Of a DNA stretch of 64,000 nt, positions 38,232-58,008 are shown one piece after another. Every line of letters begins with the position of its first letter. The stretch's first letter is position 1. Position numbers and translations under genes: made by a program. This stretch comes from Streptomyces camelliae (GTDB taxonomy: Bacteria > Actinomycetota > Actinomycetes > Streptomycetales > Streptomycetaceae): NCBI RefSeq assembly GCF_027625935.1, contig NZ_CP115301.1, forward strand, positions 62,001 through 126,000, given 5' to 3'. The notes under the pieces were generated by a model. The model was not told the origin of the DNA, ran no database searches, and was given only the letters and a program-made list of their open reading frames with translations.

Positions 38232-38756
38232 TCAGGGCGTGGCGGGCCGTTGCCACAGGGCTGTCCACGCGGTGGGGTCGGCCGGCGTCGAAGGCGGTCG
38301 GCAGTGCAGGGCGGTTCCGGTGTCCATGTCCAGCAGCCAGGATTCCTCCGGTGCGAGCCGGCGGGATGTGGCGGGTACGGGTGTTCTTTCTTCCAGGAGG
38401 ACGCCGGAGTTCGGCGGGCACAGGTCGCGGTCGGTGGCTGGTTGCCAGTGGAGGCGGCGGACGCTGGGTTCGGCTGCCCATAGGGGGCGGGCCGAGGCCC
38501 AGAAATGTGTGAGCGCGGTCGGTGGGGCGGCCCAGACGGCGTCCCGGTCGCGCAGGTCGCGCCACAGCCAGTACACGCACAGATCGGTGTCGTAGCCGGC
38601 GCGTACCAGGACCTGCAGGCGCAGCAGGCCGGCGACGTCGAGTGTCCTGCCCAGCTCCAGGTTCAGCTCGGCGAGCCGGCGTCCCGTGCCGGGGCGGGCG
38701 GTCTGGAAGCCGAGGATCGCGCAGGTCCGGCAGACTGTCATGTTCGCCTCTGTCAT
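38232..38756 (-). CDS. Unknown protein at the end of the glycosyltransferase operon
   Basis: A 174-aa protein. Its ATG (38754-38756) overlaps the glycosyltransferase stop as ATGA, so it is translationally coupled and probably works in the same pathway. AELNLELGRTLDVAGLLRLQ and YDTDLCVYWLWRDLRDRD faintly resemble a dimeric alpha/beta-barrel (ABM-like) domain. The C-terminal half (LLEERTPVP, WLLDMDTGTALHC) is not recognised. No function is assigned. Confidence 0.7.
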   Translation of the reverse strand: MTEANMTVCRTCAILGFQTARPGTGRRLAELNLELGRTLDVAGLLRLQVLVRAGYDTDLCVYWLWRDLRDRDAVWAAPPTALTHFWASARPLWAAEPSVRRLHWQPATDRDLCPPNSGVLLEERTPVPATSRRLAPEESWLLDMDTGTALHCRPPSTPADPTAWTALWQRPATP

Positions 38757-39934
38757 GGTGTGAACCGTTCGAGCAGGCCGATGGGTTCGGTCGGTGTCCA
38801 GGACAGCAGGGGGATGTGGTTGTTGACGGTCTGGCCGTCGTTCAGCTGGGCGGTGCTGGGGTGGTAGAGGTGGAGCATCGGGTCGTCGTAGTGGTCGAAT
38901 GCGGTGGCGAGCTGGAGGCGCAGGATGAAGTCGATGTCCTCACGGCCCCAACCCTCGAATCGTTCGTCCATGCCGCCCACGGTGTCGAAGACGTCGCGTC
39001 GCAGCCATACACATAGTCCTGGTGATCGCTGCACGGCGAACCAGCGCAGCTTGTCCGGGTCGGGTTCGGCCCGCCTGTGGACGCAGCGGTCGTGTACCGC
39101 GGCCGCTGTGGCGGCGGGATCCATGTAGAGCAGGTCGCGGAAGCACATGAATCCGCCTGTTCCGGGGCGCTGGAACCGGTCGGTGTTGCGCCGGACGAAG
39201 TCCTGGTCCACGAGGGCGTCGGCGTCGAGCACACAGAGGAGAGGGGCGTGGCGGCGGGCCCGCAGCACGCCGCAGTTGACGGTCCAGCATTTGTTGAACG
39301 GGCGGTCGGAGGGGGCGTGGAGCCATTCGTCGGCGTACTTCAGGGCGGTCTCGCGCCAGCGGGGGACGGTGTCCGACTCCACTACTGTCACGTGGTATCG
39401 CTCGCGGGGCATGGTCTGGTCACCGAGTGCGGCCAGGCAGGCCGTGAGGTTGCGGGCGCGTGCCTGGTCCTGGCTGTGGTCGCGGAACGGGATGACGATG
39501 TGGGCGACCGGCTCGGTGTCCGTGGGGGCCGGGGGCCGTGCGGGCCAGGACTGCCAGTCGGGCGCGGGCCGGGCCTGGGGGTCGTAGGCGTTGCCGATGT
39601 GGTAGCCGAGCCGGGATGTGGTCATGACGTGCCAGGCGGCCCGGACGAGGGGGGCGGTGCCGTCCGGTGAGGCGTGGATGGCGGCGGTCACGTGCTCCTG
39701 GAGCCGCCGCCATGCCGGAAGGCTTGCCGGGTCGTTGAGCAGTTCGTCGGCCGCGGCGGACAGCCGGGGGTCTTTGTGGGAGTGGATTTCCTTGACCAGT
39801 TCGGCCGTGTGTTCCCTCGCACGGTGCACGTAGTAGGGGTTGGCTTCGCGTGCTCCGTGGTCTGCGTGCAGGACGATCGCGTCGGCGGCGGCGCGTCCCG
39901 AGGCCGTGGCATCGGCATGGTGGGGGGATGTCAT
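38753..39934 (-). CDS. GT-A fold glycosyltransferase (GT2/GT27-like)
   Basis: A 393-aa glycosyltransferase. After a ~140-residue N-terminal extension, HIVIPFRDHSQDQARARNLT begins the nucleotide-binding fold. VLDADALVD (about residue 245) is the DxD metal motif, and GGMDERFEGWGREDIDF is the galactosyltransferase-C motif seen in GT2/GT27 enzymes. It should move a sugar from an NDP-sugar to a small molecule or glycan. It sits in a leftward operon headed by GTP cyclohydrolase II; a GH31 alpha-xylosidase lies in the opposite arm of the locus. The start is ATG 39932-39934 behind GAGGAG. Confidence 0.82.
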   Translation of the reverse strand: MTSPHHADATASGRAAADAIVLHADHGAREANPYYVHRAREHTAELVKEIHSHKDPRLSAAADELLNDPASLPAWRRLQEHVTAAIHASPDGTAPLVRAAWHVMTTSRLGYHIGNAYDPQARPAPDWQSWPARPPAPTDTEPVAHIVIPFRDHSQDQARARNLTACLAALGDQTMPRERYHVTVVESDTVPRWRETALKYADEWLHAPSDRPFNKCWTVNCGVLRARRHAPLLCVLDADALVDQDFVRRNTDRFQRPGTGGFMCFRDLLYMDPAATAAAVHDRCVHRRAEPDPDKLRWFAVQRSPGLCVWLRRDVFDTVGGMDERFEGWGREDIDFILRLQLATAFDHYDDPMLHLYHPSTAQLNDGQTVNNHIPLLSWTPTEPIGLLERFTP

Positions 39935-39947
39935 GGGCGCGGGCTCC

Positions 39948-41146
39948 TCATGGCGGCGGTGGGGCGGGCGTGGACTTGCTGTCGGTGTGCGCGGGGAGCT
40001 GTGGTCGCAGTGCCGTCAGGACGAGCGCGGCGGCCGGCATCAGTGCGGTGAAGGATCCCCACAGCACCGGTAGTGAGGTGTCGAGCAGGTGTCCCACCAA
40101 CGCGGGACGGGAGAGGGCGGACAGCGTCCAGGACAGCTGGAACACCGAGACGTACCGGCCCCGGTCTCCGTGGGGTGCTGCGGCGATGGCCAGGCTGGTG
40201 GTCGCCGGTGCGGCGAGCATCTCGCCGAGGGCGAGGAACACGCCGCCTGCGATGATCGGTGCCATGGCGGTGAGGGGGGCCGCGGGGCCGTGCTGCGAGG
40301 GCCGGCAGGAGGATGGCGATGACGAAGGAGGCGGCGCCGGCGAGCGCGGTCGATGTTCTGCGCAGGTGTTGCAGCCGTGCGGCGACGGTGGTCGGGAACA
40401 GCATGGTGAGGATCAGCGCGAACGCGGCGGTCCAGTCGGCCGGTGCGGTGTGCCGTACGACGTAGACGGGCAGGACCAGGGTGGAGATCAGCCAGCCGTA
40501 TGTCAGCAGTGTGTTGGCGCAGGTGAGTGCCGGATAGGCGCGGTCGGAGCGCAGGGCGCCGGGCTCCTGCGGTGACGGCGGCCTGGTGCGGTCTTCTTGC
40601 GGAGGGTGGGTTCTTGATCGAGACGAACAGCAGACCGGCGGTGCACGAGGTGATGATGTTCAGCGCCGGCATGGCGCGCAGGCCGCTCGTGCCGCCGACC
40701 GCGAGGGCCACGGAGGCGATGCCCGCGCCGGCGGCCAGGCCGGCGCTCTTGGCGGCGTTGACGATCGCGTTCCAGCGGTCGAGTGCGGTGCAGTCGGTGA
40801 CGTGTTCGCTGACGAAGACGGGCCAGGCGGCCCAGTAGGTCCGGTCGGCGACGGTGACGGCGGCGATCCCGGTGATCAGCAGCCAGAAGGTACCGTCGCA
40901 GAAGTACAGGCCGAGTGCTGCCGCGGCGGTCTGTGCCACCAGGACGCGCCGGGCGCCGCAGCGGTCGACGAGGTGTCCTACGAACAGCGGCACGGGCGGT
41001 CCGGCCAGGCTCGCCGCGGTGATCAGTGTGCCCAGTTCGCCCAGGGGGATCTCGGCCGTGGTGGACAGGTACAGGAAGGTGAGGGGGAGGAATGCCCCGT
41101 AGCCTGCCGTGTCCACCACGGCCGCGGTCACCAGCCGCCGGTGCAC
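39948..41146 (-). pseudogene. MFS transporter with two apparent frameshifts
   Basis: The first part, from GTG 41144-41146, reads as a good MFS N-terminal half (VVDTAGYGAFLPLTFLYLST, then DRCGARRVLVAQTAAAALGL). Near 40570 the match moves to another frame (PALTCANTLLTYGWLISTLV, PTTVAARLQHLRRTSTALAG). Near 40277, at a run of six G, it moves again (APIIAGGVFLALGEMLAAPA) and ends at 39948 with a plausible C-terminus. Overall length (~400 codons) is normal. Either the gene is dead or the read has two G/C-run errors. It lies in the leftward operon between the methyltransferase and the glycosyltransferase, so it would be the exporter of that arm. Confidence 0.75.
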
Positions 41147-57103: not shown

Positions 57104-57231
57104 CAACGCAAGCGGGGTTCGGTGAAATTCCGAACCGGCGGTGAAAGCCCGCGACCCGGTCGAAGCCATCGACCGGTTGACCCGATGGAATTTCGGGGCC
57201 GACGGTCAAAGTCCGGAAGGGAGTTTGCGTG
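57104..57231 (+). promoter_or_regulatory. FMN riboswitch (RFN element) controlling ribB
   Basis: The aptamer is plain: P1 arms ACGCAA (57106-57111) and TTGCGT (57225-57230) enclose AAATTCCGAACCGGCGGTG (57125-57143), AAAGCCCGCGA, and CCGACGGTCAAAGTCCGGA (57199-57217), all conserved RFN boxes. The expression platform is also visible: CTCCCC-CCGACG (57257-57268) is complementary to CGTCGG-aa-GGGGAG (57321-57334), a 12-bp stem that hides the ribB Shine-Dalgarno. This suggests translational repression when FMN binds. Confidence 0.95.
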
Positions 57232-57339
57232 TAGTGGCATTCTGGCGCCGATCGGGCTCCCCCCGACGCGCCGTGCGGTGTCGCGCTCTTCCGCCTGGAC
57301 CTCGCTTTCGTGCAGGGCCACGTCGGAAGGGGAGAAAGG

Positions 57340-58008
57340 ATGTTCCCACTCGACACCGTCGAGGAAGCCATCGGCACTGTGCGGGCCGGAAAGCCGGTCG
57401 TGGTGGCCGATGACGCGAACCGGGAGAACGAGGGCGACCTGGTCTTTGCCGCAGAGCACGCGACTCCGGAACTGCTGGCCTTCATGGTGCGCCACACCTC
57501 CGGATTCATCTGTGCGCCGCTGACTTCGGAGAACTGTGATCGTCTTGAACTGCCGCCGATGCACCCCGTGAACCAGGACCGGCGTGGGACGGCCTACACC
57601 GTGACCGTCGACGCCCGCGAGGGCGTCACCACCGGTATCTCCGCGGCCGACCGCGCCCGCACGATCCGGCTGCTCGCTGATCCGGACACCTCTGCCGCGG
57701 ACCTGTGCCGGCCGGGCCATGTCGTCCCGTTGCGCGGTGTCCCGGGCGGGGTGCTGCGCCGTACGGGACACACCGAGGCGACCCTCGACCTCGTACGGCT
57801 GGCCGGTTGCCGCCCTGCGGGCGTGCTGTGCGAGCTGGTCAACGACGATGGAACCATGAAGCGCCTGCCCGATCTGCGCCGCTTCGCCGACGAGTTCGGC
57901 CTTTGCCTGATCAGCGTCGCGCAGCTGGTCGAGTACCGGCTCAGGACCGGCGACACCCACGGTGCCCTCCCGCACCGTGCCGGTACGGCGATCGGCGTCG
58001 CCGGGTGA
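57340..58008 (+). CDS. ribB: 3,4-Dihydroxy-2-butanone-4-phosphate synthase
   Basis: A 222-aa single-domain RibB. DDANRENEGDLVFAAE is the acidic metal/substrate loop, HTSGFICAPL, DAREGVTTGISAADRA, RPGHVVPLR, RTGHTEATLDLVRLAG and CELVNDDGTM complete the family motifs. It converts ribulose 5-phosphate to the four-carbon precursor of riboflavin. The start is ATG 57340 behind GGGGAGAAAGG, the site masked by the riboswitch stem. It lacks the fused RibA domain common in Streptomyces; ribA stands alone at 42953. Confidence 0.94.
   Translation: MFPLDTVEEAIGTVRAGKPVVVADDANRENEGDLVFAAEHATPELLAFMVRHTSGFICAPLTSENCDRLELPPMHPVNQDRRGTAYTVTVDAREGVTTGISAADRARTIRLLADPDTSAADLCRPGHVVPLRGVPGGVLRRTGHTEATLDLVRLAGCRPAGVLCELVNDDGTMKRLPDLRRFADEFGLCLISVAQLVEYRLRTGDTHGALPHRAGTAIGVAG

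Follow-up and report, generated by a model that had tools for sequence, protein, structure and literature searches.

Which metabolite does a Streptomyces camelliae locus make when it combines a gene for a RosB-like enzyme with riboflavin genes, exporters, and putative tailoring enzymes? In the present study, we analyzed this locus in a window of 64,000 nucleotides, bases 62001-126000 of the 273,284-base contig NZ_CP115301.1 (hereafter C2); positions are those of the window unless prefixed C2 (Table 1). The initial annotation regarded it as an undescribed flavin-metabolite locus and proposed that it makes an 8-aminoflavin, the tailored end product of which may be new. Judging from gene content and orthology, we consider it probable that the C2 genes turn flavin mononucleotide (FMN) into 8-amino-riboflavin (AF), and that rosB and rosC sit within a core of eight genes that likely makes a second metabolite. 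Our best reading is that an aminoflavin branch was grafted into an older cluster, with ribA and the other riboflavin genes supplying precursor or serving as immunity.

The protein encoded at 48349 (258 amino acids) matched PDB entries 5mji and 5mld with an E value of 3e-158, and 229 of the 254 residues aligned with 5mji were identical (90%), the C-terminal tail included. A tree of 82 sequences was constructed from 77 homologues (E <= 1e-30 in 5.8 billion proteins), the window protein, 5mji, and three genomic paralogues. The window protein fell into a clade of 17 members (support 1.0) with 5mji and 15 further sequences (P0001-P0015), apart from the FMN reductases; it did not cluster with ordinary FMN reductases, the placement that would count against RosB. 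The tail was alignable in all members of the clade (diverged in P0013-P0015), whereas the 11 other sequences displayed either lacked it or could hardly be aligned there. The extracts of PMC11039241 give this tail as a RosB feature that is absent from FMN reductases. They also report a BLASTp survey of 2024 that found RosB above 89% identity with the tail in only five strains. The 15 tail-bearing relatives were 57-95% identical to the window RosB, and some of them may be strains of that survey. RosB of Streptomyces sp. NPDC004647 was 88% identical. We concluded that the 48349 protein, initially described as RosB-like, is RosB as judged by orthology.

The genome searches are samples of the genus and family. 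RosB at E <= 1e-60 was detected in one of 392 same-genus genomes and one of 296 relatives (overlapping sets), both being the source genome itself, which also encodes a RosB paralogue (42%) on contig C1. Plasmid records gave 173 RosB-like and 572 RosG matches, all below 60% identity. A RosB scan of GTDB contigs returned 70 stretches with the pattern and no relatives among them, which is a weak negative.

The initial annotation stated that neither the RosA dimethyltransferase nor the RosC phosphatase was visible. Regarding RosC, this statement fails beyond the window: a histidine-phosphatase protein at C2:128190-128864, 2.2 kb past the window end, matched PDB entry 8s6q with an E value of 7.7e-119 (187 of 222 columns identical). 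We take this entry, which is named phosphoglycerate mutase, to be RosC of S. davaonensis. On C2, 17.1 kb separate the end of rosB from the start of rosC. Regarding RosA, the statement was upheld. RosA is a COMT-type methyltransferase (PDB entry 4D7K), according to the extracts of PMC4982073. A search of the genome with PF00891 gave four matches; each was compared with PDB sequences, and none was RosA (4d7k). Three are COMT-type proteins on C2, the best matches of which were CalO1 (258.7 bits versus 166.7 for 4d7k), Fur6 (578.7 bits, with 4d7k not among the best 60 of 64), and 2r3s (106 bits versus 25.1 for 4d7k), respectively. The fourth, the window methyltransferase, matched PF00891 weakly and was rejected as a stand-in for RosA; 4d7k was not among its 23 PDB matches, which were generic and included a remote likeness to sugar N-methyltransferases. 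Among the genes expected of a roseoflavin (rosABC) cluster, rosB and a rosC homologue were found and rosA was not; the gene order rosG-ribE2-ribX-ribY-rosB (43969-49125) was also found.

These assignments suggest the following pathway. RibA, RibB, and RibE2 would raise riboflavin synthesis and RibX/RibY would import riboflavin, as expected from known enzymology, and a host flavokinase would convert it to FMN. Based on its orthology, RosB would then use glutamate to convert FMN to 8-amino-FMN (AFP). RosC may remove the phosphate of AFP to yield AF, which an ABC-2 exporter may release. Because RosA was not found, AF is the predicted stopping point; it would be an intermediate if another enzyme modifies it. 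An 8-aminoflavin, as initially proposed, is the natural prediction.

The locus is not, however, entirely undescribed. The extracts of PMC11039241 describe a rosB cluster of five genes and, at a distance of 50-65 kb in producers, a rosA cluster of ten or eleven genes (with rosA and rosC). RosG, RibE2, and RibXY are parts of the former, RosG being proposed to feed glutamate to RosB, and extra rib genes in ros producers are presented as precursor supply. As given there, Streptomyces davaonensis, S. cinnabarinus, and S. berlinensis share all five genes of the rosB cluster, and their order, with C2. However, C2 has a divergent operon of ribA, a beta-keto acid cleavage enzyme (BKACE) family gene, and a methyltransferase gene before the cluster, and two exporters, GH31, and ribB after it; moreover, its two ros parts are only about 17 kb apart. 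The six C2 genes before rosC, the lengths of which fit the published identities, correspond to RS39765-RS39790 of the rosA cluster, whereas no RosA was found.

Streptomyces sp. HUAS 2-6 encodes RosB, RosC, RosG, RibE2, and RibY and no RosA according to the same extracts, and its AF production was predicted in 2024. In sequence terms, the C2 locus is compatible with the HUAS 2-6 gene set; a matching gene set and its AF prediction were already published. Within the length ranges tried, the published identities were reproduced only by 391/435 (radical SAM 1), 447/508 (radical SAM 2), 75/91 (acyl carrier protein, ACP), and 230/257 (RosB). For RosB, we counted 229/254, with the last three residues not displayed. 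The published RosC identity of 85.20% is slightly above the C2 count (187/222). The HUAS 2-6 table, as extracted, is without RibX, whereas ribX of C2 is intact, and RS39805 and RS39810 are given as missing from HUAS 2-6.

The surroundings of rosB and rosC were compared in a matrix of 29 genes and 13 stretches, with cut-offs of 40% identity and 30% coverage. Eight core genes, namely, ribA, a small open reading frame (ORF), the BKACE gene, the methyltransferase gene, a FemAB-like gene, ATP-grasp 1, ATP-grasp 2, and rosG, were all present in Streptantibioticus rubrisoli DSM 42083 (41-82%) and in G636, a third genus that is taken to be Saccharothrix sp. ST-888 (58-80%). The small ORF of G636 (37%) falls under the matrix cut-off and was counted from a separate pairwise comparison; that of S. 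rubrisoli was 41% identical to the C2 copy, and the two relatives, which gave an ABM-like hint below the cut-off, were 61% alike. A search for the RosG family (E <= 1e-100) recovered three of 394 genomes: the source, S. rubrisoli (G541), and G636. RosG of the RosB-less loci was 66-70% identical over the full length and retained the DTTH motif, which we take to be the nucleophile motif of gamma-glutamyltransferases. RibA residues Cys57, Cys68, and Cys70 were invariant in an alignment with two relatives.

The S. rubrisoli locus, one of nine found by scanning GTDB contigs with the radical SAM 1 alignment, runs from an FMN riboswitch (95.7 bits) and ribB through RibY, RibX, an LLM-type oxidoreductase, an alcohol dehydrogenase, an MFS protein, FemAB-like, and ATP-grasp 1 to a methyltransferase, BKACE, small ORF, and ribA group on the other strand, followed by ATP-grasp 2, RosG, and RibE2. 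The S. rubrisoli genome gave no RosB match. In G636, the core shares a 40,877-base contig with an MFS gene, a TldD/E pair, and a BTAD/SARP-type regulator; this contig has a third ATP-grasp gene as well, which encodes an L-amino-acid-ligase domain. No matches to RosB, RosC, ribB, ribE2, ribXY, or the six-gene cassette described below were found on this contig (40.9 kb), and the only RosB relative in the G636 genome is a 42% paralogue that matches residues 3-205. RosC was not found in the compared stretches of S. rubrisoli and G636, the whole genomes not being searched for it. Thus, ribA is present in three of three core loci and ribB, ribE2, and ribXY in two of three.

Judged by sequence, the eight genes are clustered in independent genera without RosB, and the core likely makes a second metabolite of its own. 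The ATP-grasp 1 profile was closest to 4dim and to L-amino-acid ligases, BacD among them; of the 8,000 best-sharing candidates, only eight were relatives at E <= 1e-40. ATP-grasp 1 of Streptomyces sp. NPDC005423 was 83% identical. The FemAB-like profile matched none of the solved structures. We infer that the core may use amide chemistry of the L-amino-acid-ligase type on a building block derived from GTP cyclohydrolase II or on a flavin. No description of the eight-gene core was found in the open-licence PMC literature, among the matches listed.

All of the genes that the initial annotation named in the window are present: RosB, ribA, the riboflavin synthase, ribB with its riboswitch, the importer pair, two ABC-2 exporters, the methyltransferase, BKACE, the glycosyltransferase, the gamma-glutamyltransferase homologue, and GH31. 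They were first proposed to form one pathway, in which the core, perhaps with the glycosyltransferase and GH31, tailors AF into a new aminoflavin that bears an amide, methyl, or glycosyl group. The conserved genes extend to C2:132803 (window coordinate 70803), and the proximity of the whole set (about 33 kb), the amine left free without RosA, and the density of riboflavin genes all fit this proposal. However, the step from the extra enzymes to a tailored 8-aminoflavin was weakened because the methyltransferase, BKACE, ribA, RosG, ATP-grasp pair, and FemAB-like genes cluster in two RosB-less genera, as does the whole set of eight. Furthermore, the glycosyltransferase, GH31, and both ABC-2 exporters had a counterpart at 40% identity in none of the 13 compared stretches and could be specific to the C2 locus. 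We consider a single pathway unlikely.

Several points weigh against our preferred reading, in which an aminoflavin branch was grafted onto an older core. The putative RosC assignment hangs on our reading of 8s6q, an entry titled phosphoglycerate mutase, and the core product is predicted only to the level of enzyme classes. G636 has ribA, but its contig gave no match to ribB or ribE2, which weakens riboflavin as the substrate. In addition, the genes for RosB, RosC, and RosG are intermixed with those of the core on C2. The core might thus use AF as a substrate in this locus, although it may act on another compound in its relatives.

The distribution of riboflavin genes (ribA in every core locus, and ribB, ribE2, and ribXY in two) may also be explained if the core product inhibits riboflavin biosynthesis. 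In this case, ribA, ribB, ribE2, and the importer would be resistant or extra protective copies, and the inhibitor would be paired on this plasmid with an aminoflavin, a second antimetabolite of the same pathway. Such inhibitors have precedents. According to a preprint (PMC12871164), the flavophos cluster of Burkholderia encodes a BKACE-family enzyme together with a lumazine synthase, a cluster copy of a riboflavin gene that serves for immunity. Phosphonothrixin is described in another paper as an inhibitor of 3,4-dihydroxy-2-butanone 4-phosphate (DHBP) synthase. C2 likewise has a BKACE gene beside a riboflavin-pathway gene. However, it differs from the flavophos cluster in its other partner enzymes and in the lack of a phosphoenolpyruvate (PEP) mutase match: two PEP mutase-like queries matched nothing on C2 or the G636 contig (E 1e-5), and a phosphonate reading of the core was rejected on this result. 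The published role of extra rib genes as precursor supply in ros producers (PMC11039241, in extracts) also speaks against an inhibitor, which we regard as improbable. We further speculate that the locus may be an island with two weapons against vitamin B2: the aminoflavin would jam flavin riboswitches and enzymes, a second metabolite linked to GTP cyclohydrolase II and built by amino-acid ligases would hit riboflavin biosynthesis, and ribA, ribB, ribE2, and the importer would confer immunity. We hold this idea to be rather doubtful.

A same-species genome (G243) retains a 2,354-base piece of the locus at 97.7% identity (C17, about 448754-451093). This piece covers part of the FemAB gene, ATP-grasp 1, and residues 1-36 of ATP-grasp 2, and a mutator-family transposase is encoded at a distance of about 1 kb. 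In this genome of about 100 contigs, in which 60 kb around the piece were read, neither RosB (E <= 1e-60) nor radical SAM 1 (E <= 1e-40) was found. This scar without RosB or radical SAM 1 suggests that the locus is variable within the species. The MFS exporter of C2 (about 39948-41130) spans three reading frames; one of four MFS queries (L033) matched it, in two frames, and the MFS proteins of S. rubrisoli and G636 did not. Both the scar and the broken frame, as well as the AF prediction published for a matching gene set (PMC11039241, in extracts), would fit a decayed roseoflavin cluster from which rosA was lost, and which lies among unrelated neighbors and makes nothing beyond AF. However, these neighbors form clusters conserved across genera, and we consider such a simple degeneration very unlikely.

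A second conserved neighbor is the six-gene cassette beside rosC, which comprises radical SAM 1, B12-binding radical SAM 2, a fatty acyl-AMP ligase (FAAL), ACP, a ketoacyl-ACP synthase (KAS), and a thioesterase. All six genes occur compactly in nine of the 13 stretches, all nine actinobacterial, and the first three at >= 40% identity in Tistrella and Telmatospirillum. In eight of these nine, the flanks (about 10 kb or less) contain no other locus genes except a second thioesterase; in the ninth, S. rubrisoli, the core and riboflavin genes lie alongside. RosB was absent from the whole G247, G365, and G541 genomes, save a 38% paralogue in G247, and the other stretches were compared over their flanks only. 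Flavin genes were searched for in the other cassette stretches by tblastn (ribA, ribB, ribE2, chromosomal ribBA, and RibH) and FMN riboswitch scans, and none were found except in Tistrella. Tistrella mobilis has a riboswitch-controlled lumazine synthase gene (L039 7333-8151; FMN riboswitch, 93.9 bits). It lies about 2.2 kb upstream of the radical SAM 1 relative, is separated from it by two other genes, and may be a chance neighbor.

In G365 and S. macrolidinus, the cassette thioesterase faces the second thioesterase (84-86%). On C2, this second thioesterase lies beyond rosC, the FemAB-like gene, and the two ATP-grasp genes, which appear arranged as if inserted between the two thioesterases. 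A three-gene tree (FAAL missing for S. orinoci) grouped the C2 cassette with those of G365 and S. macrolidinus (100); the S. rubrisoli cassette fell elsewhere, the nodes around it being weak (23-55). These separate branches suggest that the cassette came together with flavin genes on two or more occasions, or that exchange took place. By its distribution, the cassette is a self-standing unit, separate from rosC.

Radical SAM 1 is conserved to an unusual degree: 79 of 111 matches (P0078-P0188) were 64-91% identical at near full length, with names that include Proteobacteria, Gemmatimonadetes, and Thermoanaerobaculia. A PEP mutase-like gene and an 81%-conserved companion lie next to the cassette in Actinocrinis (L038 8024-9545); in S. 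rubrisoli (L044 2645-6707), the cassette is followed by them at a distance of about 21-25 kb. The motifs of the two PEP mutase-like proteins are EDKVFPKVNS and EDSTFPKVNS, respectively, and both proteins fall under the NCBIfam cut-off. A phosphonate cluster near the cassette is possible in these two organisms.

Table 1. Features of the S. camelliae locus (window positions unless prefixed C2) and the matches on which their naming is based; percentages are identities to the C2 copy.
Feature	Position	Strand	Basis
Small ORF, 174 aa (core)	38232..38756	-	Conserved in RosB-less clusters; no Pfam match for C2 copy
GT2/GT7C-type glycosyltransferase	38753..39934	-	Pfam
MFS exporter, frame broken	39948..41130	-	Pfam MFS on N-terminal part only
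Class I S-adenosylmethionine (SAM) methyltransferase (core)	41172..42023	-	Pfam; 58-59% in two RosB-less loci
BKACE (core)	42020..42874	-	PF05853, 288.7 bits; 80-82% in two RosB-less loci
ribA, GTP cyclohydrolase II (core)	42953..43558	-	Family models; 75-80% in RosB-less loci
rosG, gamma-glutamyltransferase homologue (core)	43969..45570	+	PF01019, 301 bits
ribE2, archaeal-type riboflavin synthase	45630..46106	+	TIGR01506, 163.2 bits (cut-off 100.55); 81% in S. rubrisoli
ribX, riboflavin-importer permease	46236..47129	+	PF00528; 67% in S. rubrisoli; name from PMC11039241 (extracts)
ribY, importer binding protein	47237..48286	+	PF09084; 57% in S. rubrisoli
rosB, 8-amino-FMN synthase orthologue	48349..49125	+	PDB 5mji match; RosB clade
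ABC-2 exporter (ATPase and two permeases)	49219..51826	+	Pfam
GH31, YicI-type alpha-xylosidase	51854..54172	+	NF007940, 1220.7 bits (cut-off 606)
Second ABC-2 exporter (ATPase and two permeases; second permease 56129-56941)	54313..56941	+	Pfam
FMN riboswitch aptamer of ribB	57104..57232	+	RF00050, 104.7 bits
ribB, DHBP synthase	57340..58008	+	PF00926, 281.1 bits; 65% in S. rubrisoli
Short ORF	58668..59210	+	No Pfam match
Radical SAM protein 1 (cassette)	59454..60761	+	PF04055; 76-94% in 11 of 13 stretches
B12-binding radical SAM protein 2 (cassette)	60758..62284	+	PF04055 and PF02310; 69-92% in 11 of 13 stretches
FAAL (cassette)	62281..64000, end at C2:126005	+	PF00501; nearest to FAAL-type models, under their cut-offs
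ACP, KAS, hotdog thioesterase, RosC, FemAB-like, two ATP-grasp genes (after FAAL)	C2:126026-132803		

The short ORF beyond ribB resembles, in its motifs, the N-terminal remnant of a cytochrome P450. Only two FMN riboswitches were found in the genome, that of ribB and one at C1:7533774-7533904, and several aptamer positions differ between them. The genome consists of three contigs (9.6 Mb; completeness 100%). C2 is considered plasmid-like because it encodes ParA-like, ParB-like, and Prim-Pol proteins; its two 8-kb ends showed no similarity to each other. Pieces of window positions 1-25000, including SARP and gamma-butyrolactone-type regulator genes, matched 136 plasmid records (131 from Streptomyces), none of which reached 80% coverage. 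A protein at C2:177918-178988 is close to the methyltransferase Fur6 (8har, 578.7 bits), which suggests that C2 also carries a distinct furaquinocin-like cluster. A short protein with a BtrH N-terminal domain at C2:133927-134349 is apparently a fragment.

New in the present study are the distance of only about 17 kb between the two ros parts on a plasmid-like contig of 273 kb, the eight-gene core in two genera without RosB, the self-standing six-gene cassette, and 15 more tail-bearing RosB-like proteins. These 15 sequences widen a family known from five strains in the 2024 BLASTp survey (PMC11039241, in extracts). In genomes that lack RosB, two clusters contain RosG, and one of these contains RibE2 and RibXY as well; this separates the RosB-bound genes from the others, and the RosB-free occurrences of RosG give direct tests of its role. 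Genes of the rosA cluster that were unexplained belong to an independent cassette with a wide range. S. camelliae carries a compact locus that is predicted to stop at AF, a simpler antibiotic than the red vitamin-B2 antibiotic roseoflavin, and the genes around it point to a family of metabolites, as yet unstudied, that spans three or more genera.

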